From assembly GCA_946621895.1 (NCBI GenBank), contig CAMOOZ010000262.1, forward strand, positions 1-15,472: DNA of 15,472 nucleotides. The letters are read 5' to 3'. The stretch comes from an uncultured Lachnospiraceae bacterium (GTDB lineage: Bacteria; Bacillota_A; Clostridia; Lachnospirales; Lachnospiraceae). The notes under the pieces were generated by a model that saw only the letters and a program-made list of their open reading frames with translations, had not been told where the DNA came from and ran no database searches. Positions within the stretch are counted from its first letter, which is position 1, and the number at the start of each line of letters is the position of its first letter. This document shows, one piece after another, positions 1 to 14,590 of the stretch. Both the position numbers and the translations under genes were made by a program.

Positions 1-67
1 AAAGCGGGACATTCTGCACACCTGCTCGCTCCCGGCTTTGTCGGGAAATTTCCTTCGCAGGCTGTGC
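1..67 (+). repeat. Structured repeat element, copy 1 (cut by window start)
   Basis: The core ATTCTGCACACCTGCTCGC (11-29) matches 17 of 19 bases of a core on the minus strand at 14518-14536; including the flanking bases, 26 of 29 match. The copy folds as an outer stem GCACA-CCTGC (16-25) with GCAGG-c-TGTGC (57-67), an inner hairpin TCCCG/CGGGA (30-34/42-46), and a 3'-side bulge AATTTCCTTC (47-56). A strong terminator hairpin follows at 74-103. It probably forms the 3' end of a transcript entering from the left, or a small RNA. The element starts before base 1, so its first hairpin is only half visible. The family is not one I recognise. Confidence 0.6.
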
Positions 68-73
68 GATAAA

Positions 74-118
74 AAGAGCCGGGGCGCTGCCGTCCCGGCT
101 CTTCGAATTTCTTTTTTT
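74..118. terminator. Intrinsic terminator, probably bidirectional
   Basis: A perfect 10-bp stem, AAGAGCCGGG (74-83) with CCCGGCTCTT (94-103), has a 10-nt loop. On the minus strand it is followed by a run of five T (73-69), suiting termination of the FliD-like gene that ends at 132. On the plus strand it is followed by a T-rich tract including seven T near 112-118, suiting a transcript coming from the left. Confidence 0.85.
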
Positions 119-131
119 CCTCTGCTGCCCC

Positions 132-1439
132 TCAGCAGTAGCTGTTGAACATCATCCCGCTGTAGGCGCTGGTCATATAGGGGTTCGGATAATTCACGCC
201 GTTCGGATTCTTGTAGGCGGCGATCTTTTTATCCACATACTGCATGGGATCCAGTGAGACCTGATCTGTCTTTTTGATCAGCGAGTTCGCGAAGCCCCGG
301 ATCCCGTCAAAATGGGACTCCGCATCTGCTGCTGAGGCATTTTTGCGTAGGACCTCTTCGTTCACCGAGATGGTCCCGTCCTCCTCCATGGAAAGCCCCA
401 GTCCTGCCAGGGCGTCCCGATAGCTGCCCGTGAGCCGCCCCATTTCCCGGGTCAGCCTGACGGCATTTCCCTGCTTTCCGGCATATTCCGAGGCGGCTTT
501 GATGAAGCTGTTGTAGCCGCCTACCAGCTGAGAGATATTTCCGGCCAGAGACTCCACATCAGTCTTCAGGCCGATGTTCACGGTCTTATTCGGATCGGCG
601 CCGTTCAGGTGGATCTTAAACTGCCCGCCGACGGTAAATTCATTGCTGTAGGAATGGAATTCCTCGCCATCCAGCAGGAAGCTGGCGTTCTTCGGAAGCC
701 TTGAGGTGAAATCAAGCCCGAGATAGTTCACTGCCCCGGAGGCCTTGCTTGTGTTGGAATCGGTGATCTTAAAGAGCAGATCCCTGCCCTCCGGAAGACC
801 GGTGGCATTGGAGGAAATACGGAGAGAGGAGGCCCCCTCCTCGTTGTCCAGGATATCCGCCTTCAGCCCGATATTCGAATTATTGATCAGACGGCTAAGG
901 CGCTTCTGGATATCCCTGTTGGTCTCTCCGTCATTGACATTGAACTGGAATTCGTAGTTCATGTCATTTACATTTACATCGAAGGAGTAGGTGTCCGGGG
1001 AAAGTCCCGTCTCCTCGTCCGGAAGGAATTTGCCCAGATTCTGCTGTCCGCTGGCCAGCGAGGACACCTCCATCGTAAAGCTTTCCGCCGCCTCGGGGCT
1101 CTCACCGATGAATTCGGCGGTGAGGATGCCCTCGTCGCTGGAGAAGGCTGACTTTTTATTCAGCACATCGCTTTCTTCGGTGCCGCCCAAGGACGCGATC
1201 GTATTATGCAGCGACCGCGCGCTTTCCTTCACGCTGACCGCGAATTCCCTTGCGGCGCTTCCGCGGACGGAAAGATAGAGGGGAGAATCCTTGCTCAGCT
1301 TTACAATAGAATTGTAAACATTCTTCAGCTCGCTTTTTTTATGCGTATCGTAACGGGAAGAGCTCGGCTGAGGAGCATAGGTAGTCAGATAATAATTATA
1401 GACATTATTCAGTGCAGCATTGTTTACAGCGCCTGCCAT
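132..1439 (-). CDS. FliD-like (flagellar hook-associated protein 2-related) protein
   Basis: The protein has 435 residues. The start at 1439 is chosen because AGGAGGGG lies a few bases upstream; the frame stays open to 1640, but that extension would run through the promoter. The middle (about residues 130-330) is rich in beta-type sequence, and the C-terminal third holds a helical segment beginning SLAGNISQLVGGYNSFIK and a stretch RDALAGLGLSMEEDGTISVN, both like the C-terminal region of filament cap proteins. FliD normally caps the flagellar filament outside the cell. The N-terminus (NNVYNYYLTTYAP...) does not resemble a standard FliD start, and no other flagellar gene lies in the window. The protein ends in Cys. 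It could be a FliD relative used for something other than motility. Own promoter at 1612-1640 and terminator at 74-103, so probably monocistronic. Confidence 0.6.
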   Translation of the reverse strand: MAGAVNNAALNNVYNYYLTTYAPQPSSSRYDTHKKSELKNVYNSIVKLSKDSPLYLSVRGSAAREFAVSVKESARSLHNTIASLGGTEESDVLNKKSAFSSDEGILTAEFIGESPEAAESFTMEVSSLASGQQNLGKFLPDEETGLSPDTYSFDVNVNDMNYEFQFNVNDGETNRDIQKRLSRLINNSNIGLKADILDNEEGASSLRISSNATGLPEGRDLLFKITDSNTSKASGAVNYLGLDFTSRLPKNASFLLDGEEFHSYSNEFTVGGQFKIHLNGADPNKTVNIGLKTDVESLAGNISQLVGGYNSFIKAASEYAGKQGNAVRLTREMGRLTGSYRDALAGLGLSMEEDGTISVNEEVLRKNASAADAESHFDGIRGFANSLIKKTDQVSLDPMQYVDKKIAAYKNPNGVNYPNPYMTSAYSGMMFNSYC

Positions 1440-1605
1440 ATACCCCTCCTTTCTTCCCTGAATAGGGGAACCGTAATGAAGATCCAACGACCCGGCAGCA
1501 CCGCCCGCTTCTGCAAATGCGCCTGCGGCATGCCGGCTGTTTCCGGTTCCCGTCCTGTACATCCCTGTACAGCAATGGATACTGGCATAAAACCTATTTA
1601 GAGTT
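1440..1605 (-). promoter_or_regulatory. Structured 5' leader of the FliD-like gene
   Basis: About 165 nt separate the predicted transcription start from the start codon. It holds nested inverted repeats: GGGAACCG (1466-1473) with CGGTTCCC (1544-1551), and inside it CCGGCA (1492-1497) with TGCCGG (1531-1536). A TGTACA repeat pair lies near 1557-1572. No U-tract follows the main stem, and the SD is outside it. I could not match it to a known riboswitch; it has no recognisable cyclic di-GMP motif. Confidence 0.4.
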
Positions 1606-1611
1606 AGTATC

Positions 1612-1640
1612 AGTATATACCTGATGAAAAGTAAATGCAA
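1612..1640 (-). promoter_or_regulatory. Sigma-A promoter of the FliD-like gene
   Basis: On the minus strand TTGCAT (1640-1635) is followed after exactly 17 nt by TATACT (1617-1612). This is a near-consensus housekeeping promoter, not the sigma-28 type usual for late flagellar genes. It is back to back with the plus-strand promoter at 1729-1758. Confidence 0.7.
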
Positions 1641-3507: not shown

Positions 3508-3712
3508 CTCCCGGATATTGTTGGGAGGCAGGTGTGATGCCTGCCGTTTGCACCAGGAAGCAGCGGCATTCCGCAGCGGTTTTCCGGTAAGCCGGAAAGG
3601 CCCGCGCTGATAAGCCGGGGATCACGGCAGGGCAGACCTCCGCGACGGAGGTCTTGCAGATCCATGCCGGGACGCCATGCAAGAAAGCCTTCTGCTTCGG
3701 AAAGGACAGGAG
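3508..3712 (+). other. Structured spacer between rplK and rplA
   Basis: 205 nt with three clear inverted repeats: GGCAGG/CCTGCC (3527-3532/3540-3545), TTTCCGG/CCGGAAA (3581-3587/3592-3598) and a perfect 9-bp AGACCTCCG/CGGAGGTCT (3634-3642/3646-3654). None ends in a T-run. L1 regulates its operon in other bacteria by binding its own mRNA, so a regulatory leader is possible, but I did not recognise an L1 site. Confidence 0.45.
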
Positions 3713-7039: not shown

Positions 7040-7182
7040 TCGGATCATGGTGGGATCCCGCATCGGGCGGGATCCCCTGTCGTTATGGCGGGGCCGCCGG
7101 AAGGAGACCCGGGTTTCCTTTCGGCAGCTTCGCCGGGCGGGCAGGGCGCGGAGCAAACCGTCCTGCCTGAATGGTGGTTTTT
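7040..7182 (+). other. Hairpin-rich livJ-livH spacer, probable fourth repeat copy
   Basis: 143 nt with three stems: a perfect 10-bp GGGATCCCGC/GCGGGATCCC (7052-7061/7067-7076); GCCGGAAGGA with TCCTTTCGGC (7096-7105/7116-7125, one G-T pair); and GGCAGG/CCTGCC (7140-7145/7162-7167) just before the livH SD. The first two can be aligned with the repeat elements at the window ends: first hairpin, linker, then GGCGGGGCCGCCGG and TTTCCTTTCGGC as at 14473-14518. The middle stem can alternatively fold as GCCG/CGGC around CCGG/CCGG, leaving a GTTTCCTTT bulge. No T-run, so it should not terminate strongly; it may stabilise the livJ mRNA 3' end. Confidence 0.5.
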
Positions 7183-10973: not shown

Positions 10974-11003
10974 TTGACGCGAACCGATGGATCATGTTAT
11001 TCT
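10974..11003 (+). promoter_or_regulatory. Sigma-A promoter of rplJ-rplL
   Basis: TTGACG (10974-10979) and TATTCT (10998-11003) are 18 nt apart, with a TGT extension right before the -10 (10995-10997). The L10 leader starts just downstream, about 11010. Because livF has no terminator, read-through from the liv operon is also possible. Confidence 0.7.
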
Positions 11004-11009
11004 TTCCTA

Positions 11010-11148
11010 CGCCGAAGACAGCAGGCGCCGAAAGGCTTAATCGTACCTGCCGAGGCAGCAGGATAGTGGGATCAGCTTCGAGACCCTTGTATTCGAAGAG
11101 TAGATAACTGTGTTGCGCCCCGGTCTTTGGCCAGGGCGTTTCTTTTTT
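11010..11148 (+). ncRNA. Ribosomal protein L10 leader with attenuator
   Basis: This matches the L10(L12)4-binding leader of Firmicutes as I know it: GAAGACAGCAGG, a GCC-gaaa-GGC hairpin (11027-11036) followed by CTTAAT, closed by GCAGG (11021-11025) with CCTGC (11046-11050), then CCGAGG. A further stem CTTCG/CGAAG lies at 11076-11080/11094-11098. It ends in an intrinsic terminator: CGCCC (11116-11120) with GGGCG (11134-11138) plus inner GG/CC pairs, then TTTCTTTTTT (11139-11148). In B. subtilis excess L10-L12 complex binds such a leader and favours termination. The transcription start is inferred. Confidence 0.85.
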
Positions 11149-11315
11149 ATCGCACGGACGCGCAGATGTAATGGATGGCGCTGCCATCGCGCGGCCGGCG
11201 GGACAAGCAGGGCGTGATTCGCATTCCCTGTCCGAGCGGCAGGTGCAGCGAAATGAAGCGGGCCGCGCCGCCGGAAAAGAGCCCTCATTGAATAAATAAA
11301 GGAGGAAACCAAAAC
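11149..11315 (+). other. Long 5' leader downstream of the L10 attenuator
   Basis: 167 nt between the attenuator and rplJ hold no gene. GCGCGGCC (11189-11196) can pair with GGCCGCGC (11261-11268); inside, CTGCC/GGCAG pairing is not nested properly but CAGGG/CCCTG near 11208-11230 forms a hairpin. The last bases give a clean AAAGGAGG site for rplJ. Confidence 0.4.
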
Positions 11316-12766: not shown

Positions 12767-14332
12767 ATGGTACGAAAATTAATTAATAAACTGAAGCCTG
12801 CGGATCATATCCTGATCCTGTTTCTTGCTGCGCTGATCCTTTTCGAGGCCAGAAGCTGGGCGCTGCCCTGGTTTCCCCGGGAGATCCGGGAGGCCGATCA
12901 GCTGGCCGCGGCCACGGATCTTGCGAAGGGGATCAATATCTATTCGCCGGAGGTCATCCGGGGAGAGGAATTTCCGGCCTTCATCATGTACGGCTTCTTG
13001 AGTCCCCTGCTGATCGCGGCACTTTCTCTGCTGACGGGCGGCTCTGTGCTCGTTTCCGGGACGGTTTTTTATCTGTTCTGCAAGCTGGGCGCCTGCTTCC
13101 TGCTGGGCCTGACCGTTTACCGGAAAAAACAAAATCTGACGATCGCGCTTTTATGCGCGGCGCTGCTCTATCCGTGCTTCTGGCGTTATGAAGTCTTTGG
13201 CGGCATTTTCCCCGATGCCCTGGGGATCTTTCTCAGCGTACTTTTCTATTATGTGACGGAAACGGGGATCCTGCGGGGAAAAAATCATCCCTTTCAGATG
13301 GCGGGGATCATTCTGCTCCTCTTCTATACCAAATATTATTTTGTTTTTATCCTGTTTGGCGCGGGGCTTTATCTGCTCCTGCACAATAGAAAGGATTTCT
13401 TCCGGTTCAGCCTTTTCGGATCAGCCGCGGGTATCTGCTCGATCCTGCTCGTGGACAGGATTTTTCCGCTTTTTTTTACCTCCACGATCCCGGTGCTTTC
13501 CGTGTCCACCAGAACTTCCGTCTGGAATTCCGTAAAGCAGCTGCTGGCGCTGGGCAGATATTTTCCCCTGCCGATCCTGATCCTGCTGGTCTGGTTTTTT
13601 GCCGGCCTTTACCGGCTTTACCGGAAAAAGAAGGAAGCCCGGACATTTTTTTCGTTTCCGATGCTGGAGACACTCTGCATCTTTCCGTTTGCCTTTCTTT
13701 TCGGAAGAAATGACGGCACCTGGCTGACCTATTATCTGCAGATGCTCATGCCCGCGGCGATCCTGCTTTTCGGAGAGGTGTTCGGCGAACTGGCCACGGG
13801 AGAAAACAGGATTGCCGCGGCATGGAAAAAGCCGGCATTGCAGCTTCTGCTGCTGATCGCCTTCCTTCTGCCCACCTGCAAATATTCGCTGAACCTTTAT
13901 CTGACGCCGGAAATGGAGGCGGACTGGAACAATCTTTACGCGAGGCTGGATGTTCTTGCGGAGGATAAGGAGGGCGTGCTGCTTCTGGGGCCGGAGCTGG
14001 GATTTTACGCCATTGAGAAGGAGCTTTATCTGCTGGACGAGGGCGCCGGACAGTATATCAATGACGCCTTTTTAAAGAGCTGGGAGGAGTCTGCGCTTTC
14101 CCGGGCGCTTTTCCCCCACGCTCCGGAGCTCTGCAAAGCATACCGCGCGCAGACGGAAAAGATCAACCGGGATATCCGCGAAGGCCGGTACGCGTATGTG
14201 GTCATTGACGAAAACTGGACGGAATATTTTGTGGACCTCGAGGCGCTGCAGCAGACATATGAAAGAATTGAACGGCATGGACTGCAGGTGGGTCCCTTCG
14301 GTGTGAGCGTGGATATCTACCGGCGGCGGTGA
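12767..14332 (+). CDS. Polytopic membrane protein, probable GT-C-type glycosyltransferase
   Basis: 521 residues with about eleven hydrophobic segments from residue 13 to near 380, then a soluble C-terminal domain of about 140 residues. The first large outer loop begins with READQLAAATDLAKGINIYS; an acidic residue in this loop followed by G-x-x-x-Y recalls GT-C enzymes that use polyprenyl-phosphate sugars (ArnT/PMT or GT87-like). Such proteins glycosylate lipids, proteins or wall polymers on the outer face. The acceptor is unknown and I see no full family signature. The ATG at 12767 has only a weak site (AGCAGAG). It follows the terminator at 12700, but no clear promoter was found. Confidence 0.6.
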   Translation: MVRKLINKLKPADHILILFLAALILFEARSWALPWFPREIREADQLAAATDLAKGINIYSPEVIRGEEFPAFIMYGFLSPLLIAALSLLTGGSVLVSGTVFYLFCKLGACFLLGLTVYRKKQNLTIALLCAALLYPCFWRYEVFGGIFPDALGIFLSVLFYYVTETGILRGKNHPFQMAGIILLLFYTKYYFVFILFGAGLYLLLHNRKDFFRFSLFGSAAGICSILLVDRIFPLFFTSTIPVLSVSTRTSVWNSVKQLLALGRYFPLPILILLVWFFAGLYRLYRKKKEARTFFSFPMLETLCIFPFAFLFGRNDGTWLTYYLQMLMPAAILLFGEVFGELATGENRIAAAWKKPALQLLLLIAFLLPTCKYSLNLYLTPEMEADWNNLYARLDVLAEDKEGVLLLGPELGFYAIEKELYLLDEGAGQYINDAFLKSWEESALSRALFPHAPELCKAYRAQTEKINRDIREGRYAYVVIDENWTEYFVDLEALQQTYERIERHGLQVGPFGVSVDIYRRR

Positions 14333-14360
14333 ACTCCTGCTCTGCGGCAATCGATCAGGG

Positions 14361-14430
14361 AAGGATTCATCCGCACCTTACTCGCCGCCAGGGGGCGCAT
14401 CGTCAAATGGCGATATTTTCCTCTGTGCCC
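14361..14430 (+). repeat. Structured repeat element, copy 2
   Basis: The core ATTCATCCGCACCTTACTCG (14365-14384) resembles the cores at 11-29 and on the minus strand at 14536-14518. It is followed by an outer stem GGGCGCA (14393-14399) with TGTGCCC (14424-14430, one G-T pair), an inner TCG/CGA hairpin (14400-14402/14411-14413) and a 10-nt 3'-side bulge TATTTTCCTC (14414-14423). It lies 28 nt after the GT-C-like gene and 12 nt before the terminator hairpin at 14443. Confidence 0.55.
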
Positions 14431-14442
14431 ACGACATGAAAA

Positions 14443-14466
14443 AAGGGAAAGCCGGAGCTTTCCCTT
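14443..14466 (-). terminator. Intrinsic terminator between converging genes
   Basis: AAGGGAAAGC (14443-14452) pairs perfectly with GCTTTCCCTT (14457-14466) around a 4-nt loop. On the minus strand it runs into TTTT, giving six T in all: an excellent terminator for the transaldolase-side transcript. On the plus strand the tail is poor in T, so termination of the GT-C-like transcript is less certain. Confidence 0.85.
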
Positions 14467-14472
14467 ATGACA

Positions 14473-14555
14473 GGGCCGCCGAAAGGAAAATGCCGCTTCG
14501 CGGCCGGCGGCCCGCCGGCGAGTAGGTGTGCGGAATGTCCTGCTTTGCAGGACAT
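14473..14555 (-). repeat. Structured repeat element, copy 3
   Basis: Read on the minus strand: hairpin 1 ATGTCCTGC-aaa-GCAGGACAT (14555-14535, perfect 9 bp), then the core ATTCCGCACACCTACTCGC (14536-14518), then hairpin 2. Hairpin 2 has a perfect 9-bp outer stem GGGCCGCCG/CGGCGGCCC (14513-14505/14481-14473), an inner 5-bp stem GCCGC/GCGGC with a GAA loop, and a 10-nt 3'-side bulge ATTTTCCTTT (14491-14482). The terminator at 14443-14466 follows 6 nt later. It is the most complete copy, positioned as the 3' UTR of the transaldolase-family gene or as a processed or independent small RNA. Confidence 0.65.
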
Positions 14556-14590
14556 CGTCTTCCCTGCTCGATAGATATCGATTTTCCGAT

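Follow-up and report, generated by a model that had tools for sequence, protein, structure and literature searches.

A dispersed family of bulged-hairpin repeats, probably mobile, in a Lachnospiraceae contig and related genomes

Five copies of a structured element (A to E, Table 1) lie in the stretch of 15,472 nucleotides analysed here (the window), which comes from an uncultured Lachnospiraceae bacterium, and related copies are dispersed over other genomes. Pairing within the elements is conserved, they have spread in multiple copies, and their 3´ end tends towards gene ends and terminators. The reading we favour, with moderate confidence, is that they constitute a new REP/MITE-like family of dispersed repeats, probably non-autonomous mobile elements that are recognised in the folded state and settle beside intrinsic terminators. 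A strongly conserved fold, absent from Rfam, recurs in one third of the family genomes sampled (83 of 250), its copies tend to gene ends, and one of them stands inside a ribosomal-protein control region.

Copies in the window

Table 1. Copies of the repeat and adjoining features, in positions of the window
Feature	Position	Strand	Remarks
Copy A	1..68	+	contig start truncates 5´ part; bulge AATTTCCTTC at 47-56
Terminator-like hairpin adjoining copy A	74..103	+	T-rich stretches on both sides; terminator scan and sequence
GC-rich hairpin adjoining copy E	7052..7077	+	3´ of binding-protein gene; weak T-run; fold and sequence
Copy E	7075..7167	-	degenerate; flanked by livH and the branched-chain amino-acid binding-protein gene, antisense to the two genes
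L10 leader and terminator, adjoining copy D	10994..11153	+	Rfam RF00557, 64.4 bits
Copy D	11142..11233	-	between L10-leader terminator and rplJ, antisense to both
Copy B	14349..14430	+	between stop codon of 521-aa gene and terminator hairpin common with C
Terminator hairpin common to B and C	14443..14466	-	T-run on - strand; terminator scan
Copy C	14473..14571	-	3´ of transaldolase-like gene; top-scoring window member

The sequence-only reading had described three copies with differing stems and 10-nt bulges. These are present as A, B and C, and predicted folds show the stems that the reading named, together with the bulges AATTTCCTTC, TATTTTCCTC and ATTTTCCTTT; the outer stem of A is built by the core itself (GCACACCTGC), in which B and C differ. 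The covariance-model search that it proposed yielded D and E, both absent from that reading, as well as copies in the genomes of relatives. Copy A adjoins a terminator-like hairpin, and B and C converge on a common terminator hairpin from opposite strands, each lying in sense orientation between a stop codon and this hairpin. All five copies adjoin a GC-rich hairpin in the sequence, and in all five the 3´-side gene points at the element. A strict terminator scan flagged one of the five on each strand, and the hairpin beside E was unflagged by the terminator scan.

The claim of a common core stood in part. A and C agree in 26 of 29 bases (AAAGCRGGACATTCYGCACACCTRCTCGC), a match equalled by none of 500 single-letter shuffles, and one shuffle did as well as the pair B-C, whereas 243 did as well as A-B. 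Since the A-B likeness is at chance level, the membership of B comes from its structure and from the model built on relatives, not from the core alone, and A belongs chiefly by virtue of the core that it has in common with C. When the window was scanned for the hairpin geometry (a 3´ bulge of 9-11 nt that contains either TTTCCT or TTTTCC, plus an outer stem of 6 or more, a cut-off below which A falls), B and C were the sole matches, and none of ten dinucleotide shuffles gave any.

Three covariance models, the E-values of which are rough, were applied. R1 was trained on sequences from genomes G505 and G730 only, R2 on 16 sequences including copy C, with G730, G505 and G549 among the sources, and R3 on copy C, two G730 copies and one G575 copy; D was in no training set. 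R1 matched C (35.8 bits, E 2.6e-5) and, weakly, D (E 0.028), left A, B and E unmatched, and also matches window-type copies in G730. With R2, D reached E 3e-5, A only 0.26 and B only 0.74, and E was absent from the matches. R3 found D (E 4.2e-10), E (1.3e-6) and B (8.5e-6, matched at 14377-14447), and matched A weakly at 21-81 with 15.6 bits (E 0.01); E, B and A were likewise outside its training set. In 338 kb, mostly of G730, the same model gave E-values of 9e-9 for D, 3e-5 for E, 2e-4 for B and 0.23 for A. One further hairpin, at 3629-3671 (+) between the L11 and L1 genes, scored above A and B with R2 (20.5 bits, E 0.0017); it is not counted as a copy because it has no inner hairpin and receives 6.1 bits from R3.

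It is extremely improbable that the copies are chance look-alikes, GC-rich hairpins that merely happen to stand beside terminators. Such an origin would agree with the chance-level core likeness of A and B, and with the score of A, which is about that of a place in G730 contig L102 lacking other support (15.5 bits with R3). Models without these copies in their training nevertheless find C, D, B and E, R3 scores no higher than 11.2 bits anywhere in 126 kb of unrelated DNA, and the pair-count controls described below also speak against chance.

The family had gone unrecognised in the sequence-only reading, in agreement with Rfam 15, which gives only matches below the gathering score over the elements of the window and of its relatives. 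Among these are M23 over copy C (24.9 bits, cut-off 41.2) and, in relatives' elements, mir-9457, rli61 and L2-Alphaproteobacteria.

Two proteins encoded beside the copies were looked at. The 502-aa product of 132-1640 (-), next to copy A, has a FliD C-terminal match (E 1.3e-7). The 521-aa product of 12767-14332 (+) has no Pfam match; among 7996 candidates scored at least three proteins were found for it, one of them 99% identical, and it has a Lachnospiraceae relative at 47%. The window starts inside copy A, and several copies in other genomes also stand at contig ends; such copies may break draft assemblies.

Conserved fold

In a complete unit of ~120-160 bp, hairpin 1, which is variable, is followed by the closing (G)CGC stem, the central bulged hairpin and then hairpin 3, also variable, in place of which units of the window type have a terminator hairpin. 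The central hairpin has an outer stem of 8-9 bp and an inner stem of 5-6 bp, the latter with a bulge of ~10 nt on its 3´ side. This bulge holds a near-invariant TTCC, the four positions of which are kept in 78, 74, 79 and 68 of 80 distinct rows of alignment A13 (87 matches; C and D included, A, B and E left out).

The covariation predicted for the changing stems is borne out by this alignment: 98.2% of its 1353 cells are paired, compared with 71.0% in shuffles, and 329 both-sided changes, compared with 96, are seen at 15 of the 17 pairs. When the partner was slid by 1-3 columns, pairing dropped to 25-47%. Because the rows are related, and because fitting the alignment to the model favours structure, these pair counts do not represent independent events.

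Hairpins 1 and 3 vary in sequence between genomes, and the flanks of the core fold more stably than control stretches do: the median is -10.4 vs -4.6 kcal/mol for the 36 nt 5´ of the core and -19.5 vs -9.4 kcal/mol for the 56 nt 3´ of it. Near-identical copies carry matching changes on both arms of hairpin 3 (G730 L124 and L132; G505 L114), which could stem either from selection or from palindrome correction. Between the central hairpin and hairpin 3, GGAG occurs in 67 of the 80 distinct rows, and a pseudoknot of the bulge with GGAG, or with GGGAA, is a possible candidate.

Some units are elaborated further. Two G730 copies (L091 6779-6843 and L129 1529-1593) have an extra nested hairpin (CAAGCTTTGCTGCGCAAAGCATG) right after the central one. 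In four from G505 (L107, L123, L130 and L133) hairpin 3 is longer and encloses an inner hairpin of the type CCCCCACCT...AGGTGGGGG, which we take to resemble IS605-type ends.

Spread and position among genomes

Among the genomes found, G730 stands nearest to the window (L1 89%; nusG 96% and L11 94% on one contig). The geometry scan of 20 G730 contigs gave three near-identical units of ~130-155 bp with the same bulged hairpin. BLAST of one of its units against 18 genomes returned 63 matches in G730, including part-length matches and matches of palindromes on both strands, at least 40 in G505 (the best 40 of 83 candidates), 11 in G549, one in G696 and none in the other 14. Near-identical copies occur within G505, G730 and G549, and the sole match in G541, another species, has a core identical to that of a G505 copy. 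Near-identity within genomes, and once between two species, fits mobile DNA. The window copies would, on our inference, be older and divergent members of the family.

The wider prevalence was assessed with R2 (E<=1e-3) in 250 genomes of one family, a draw that includes the training genomes G730, G505 and G549. The 83 genomes with matches comprise 32 with at least five matches, 14 with two to four and 37 with exactly one, the high counts being lower bounds because the best 21 candidates per genome were scored. The family concerned is probably Lachnospiraceae: the organisms named among the top L1 protein matches all belong to it, most matches being without a name. In 378 phylum-wide genomes, a draw possibly including family members, as an earlier phylum draw did, R2 gave no match among the best 14 candidates per genome.

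Relatives were reached by structure-led search and not by the core sequence. The exact core gave nine matches in a scan of genome contigs, none of them in records named Lachnospiraceae, where we estimate ~15 by chance, and 15 matches in a viral scan, judged by eye to be chance. With two mismatches allowed, 299 family genomes yielded 62 matches (in 55 genomes) vs ~64 for the reversed control, and the core pattern had no match in G730. Since these scans stay at chance level and G730 has none, the sequence core looks local to the lineage of the window.

Units also occur in tandem, in genomes G647, G730 and G575. Window-type units in L091 9700-10500 and L192 1728-2010 are joined where TGTG.. meets AATCNA, with changing sequences, and G647 has three-unit arrays with ~120-126 bp spacing (L152 2004-2307 and L201 1948-2263).

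By crude ORF calls, overlap with an ORF of at least 200 aa is limited to 8 of 90 copies, and 60 of 88 have a 3´-side gene that points towards them. The multi-copy elements of G730 depart from this trend in gene orientation, with the 3´-side gene on the same strand in six cases and on the opposite strand in two. Terminator-like sites 10-170 nt 3´ of the element were found on the opposite strand in 32 of 87 copies and on the same strand in 24 of 87; on the 5´ side there were 10 and 9 among 85, and at random positions 47 and 41 among 435.

At the L10-leader site, copy D extends the leader in the window, and G730 carries a hairpin that bears the motif of hairpin 1, AATCGAG..GGGAAGA, in the same place and the same orientation; R3 has no match there. 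Inspection by eye reveals no such insert in six other genomes. That the site is common to the window and G730 suggests that some copies are old.

The elements had been proposed to be a selected RNA structure. Strong covariation and related copies elsewhere support a structured family; its RNA nature fares less well. As an RNA, the element would be a sense-strand element or small RNA near gene 3´ ends, with its UUCC bulge bound by a protein or pairing with purine-rich RNA. Besides the covariation and the near-invariant unpaired TTCC, such a role would account for the position of B and C, in sense between stop codon and terminator hairpin, for the frequent GGAG after the hairpin, which could pair with TTCC, and for the excess of G.T over A.C in the central hairpin (25 vs 9). 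But G.T is rare there (25 of 1353 cells), two recurrent columns contribute 13 of the 25, and the excess drops to 12 vs 9 without them; scored evenly, the counts are 3 vs 3 in hairpin 1 and 32 vs 21 in hairpin 3. With G.T barely above A.C, the pairing bias does not clearly mark an RNA strand. Moreover, for 42 of 90 copies both neighbours lie antisense to the element, and for only 11 do both lie in sense (crude ORF calls), D and E are themselves antisense, and near-identical multi-copy spread would be unusual for an RNA gene. We therefore consider an RNA element possible, if doubtful.

Proposed mobility and relation to known systems

Returning to a mobile repeat family, we infer mobility, a mover acting in trans and recognition of a folded strand. 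A protein provided in trans would recognise the folded single strand via the bulge and the closing stem and would copy the unit, in fixed orientation, beside intrinsic terminators, movement proceeding as for REP-type and IS200/IS605-type elements. The analysis found neither an autonomous element nor a mover. Of 23 copy-rich genomes 13 have Y1 transposase genes, as have 11 of 20 copy-free ones, which is no association; the other ten copy-rich genomes show none, an absence that is soft as many genomes are in many contigs. Target-site duplication was not seen by eye in ten G505 loci. The repeats would point to a mover or binding protein.

Movement by a DDE transposase is quite improbable in our estimate. 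The copies would then be MITEs, with inverted-repeat ends moved by the transposase of an insertion sequence and with the inner hairpin as cargo. Like MITEs, the repeats are short and multi-copy, and an inverted end of the form TARGGAAAYGCTGA, with small variations, is common to the first and last hairpins in G730, G549, G523, G544 and G640. Other types, for example that of G505, lack common ends, and the conserved inner fold further sets the family apart: if it were cargo, the covariation of the inner hairpin across all types would be left unexplained.

A more far-reaching version of mobility is tentative and, we think, unlikely to be right: the repeats might be mobile elements of a new class, directed to intrinsic terminators and travelling as folded single-stranded RNA or DNA by means of machinery that is neither a RAYT nor an IS200 transposase. 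In the case of RNA, the element would be a bacterial SINE-like retroelement.

A search of open-access literature by sequence and for Lachnospiraceae repeats and MITEs, REPs and repeat RNAs did not find the family. BOX is another dispersed structured intergenic repeat; the architecture of BOX, ERIC and RUP appears to differ from that of the new family, and they belong to other lineages. Passages of one survey list BIME, ERIC and RUP as dispersed structured intergenic repeats, its table of stem-loop repeats includes Clostridium perfringens and C. tetani, and Lachnospiraceae are unnamed in these passages (PMC2267715). Group IIC introns, in passages of another paper, share with the new family the use of intrinsic terminators as insertion sites (PMC4424553). 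The unit is too short for such an intron (~120-160 bp), and Rfam scans gave no group II intron match.

Closer parallels exist among elements moved by single-strand transposases. PATEs, derived from IS200/IS605, have palindrome-marked ends and no clear target duplication; the new family is like them in its ends and, by eye in the ten G505 loci, may be so in the duplication. It differs in having no apparent tnpA/tnpB partner and in that the central bulged hairpin is best conserved. REPs and BIMEs are extragenic, many-copy, hairpin-structured repeats at gene 3´ ends, the stems of which vary while the structure is kept; they are associated with RAYT (Y1) transposases, and GTAG or GGAG stands at the hairpin foot in the REP/RAYT system. 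The new family resembles them in its dispersed extragenic hairpins, its many copies, its changing stems and its position at gene 3´ ends, but it is longer, has three hairpins and a ~10-nt bulge, is seen in one bacterial family and shows no Y1 link. It looks undescribed as a family and, in kind, looks like the dispersed extragenic structured repeats.
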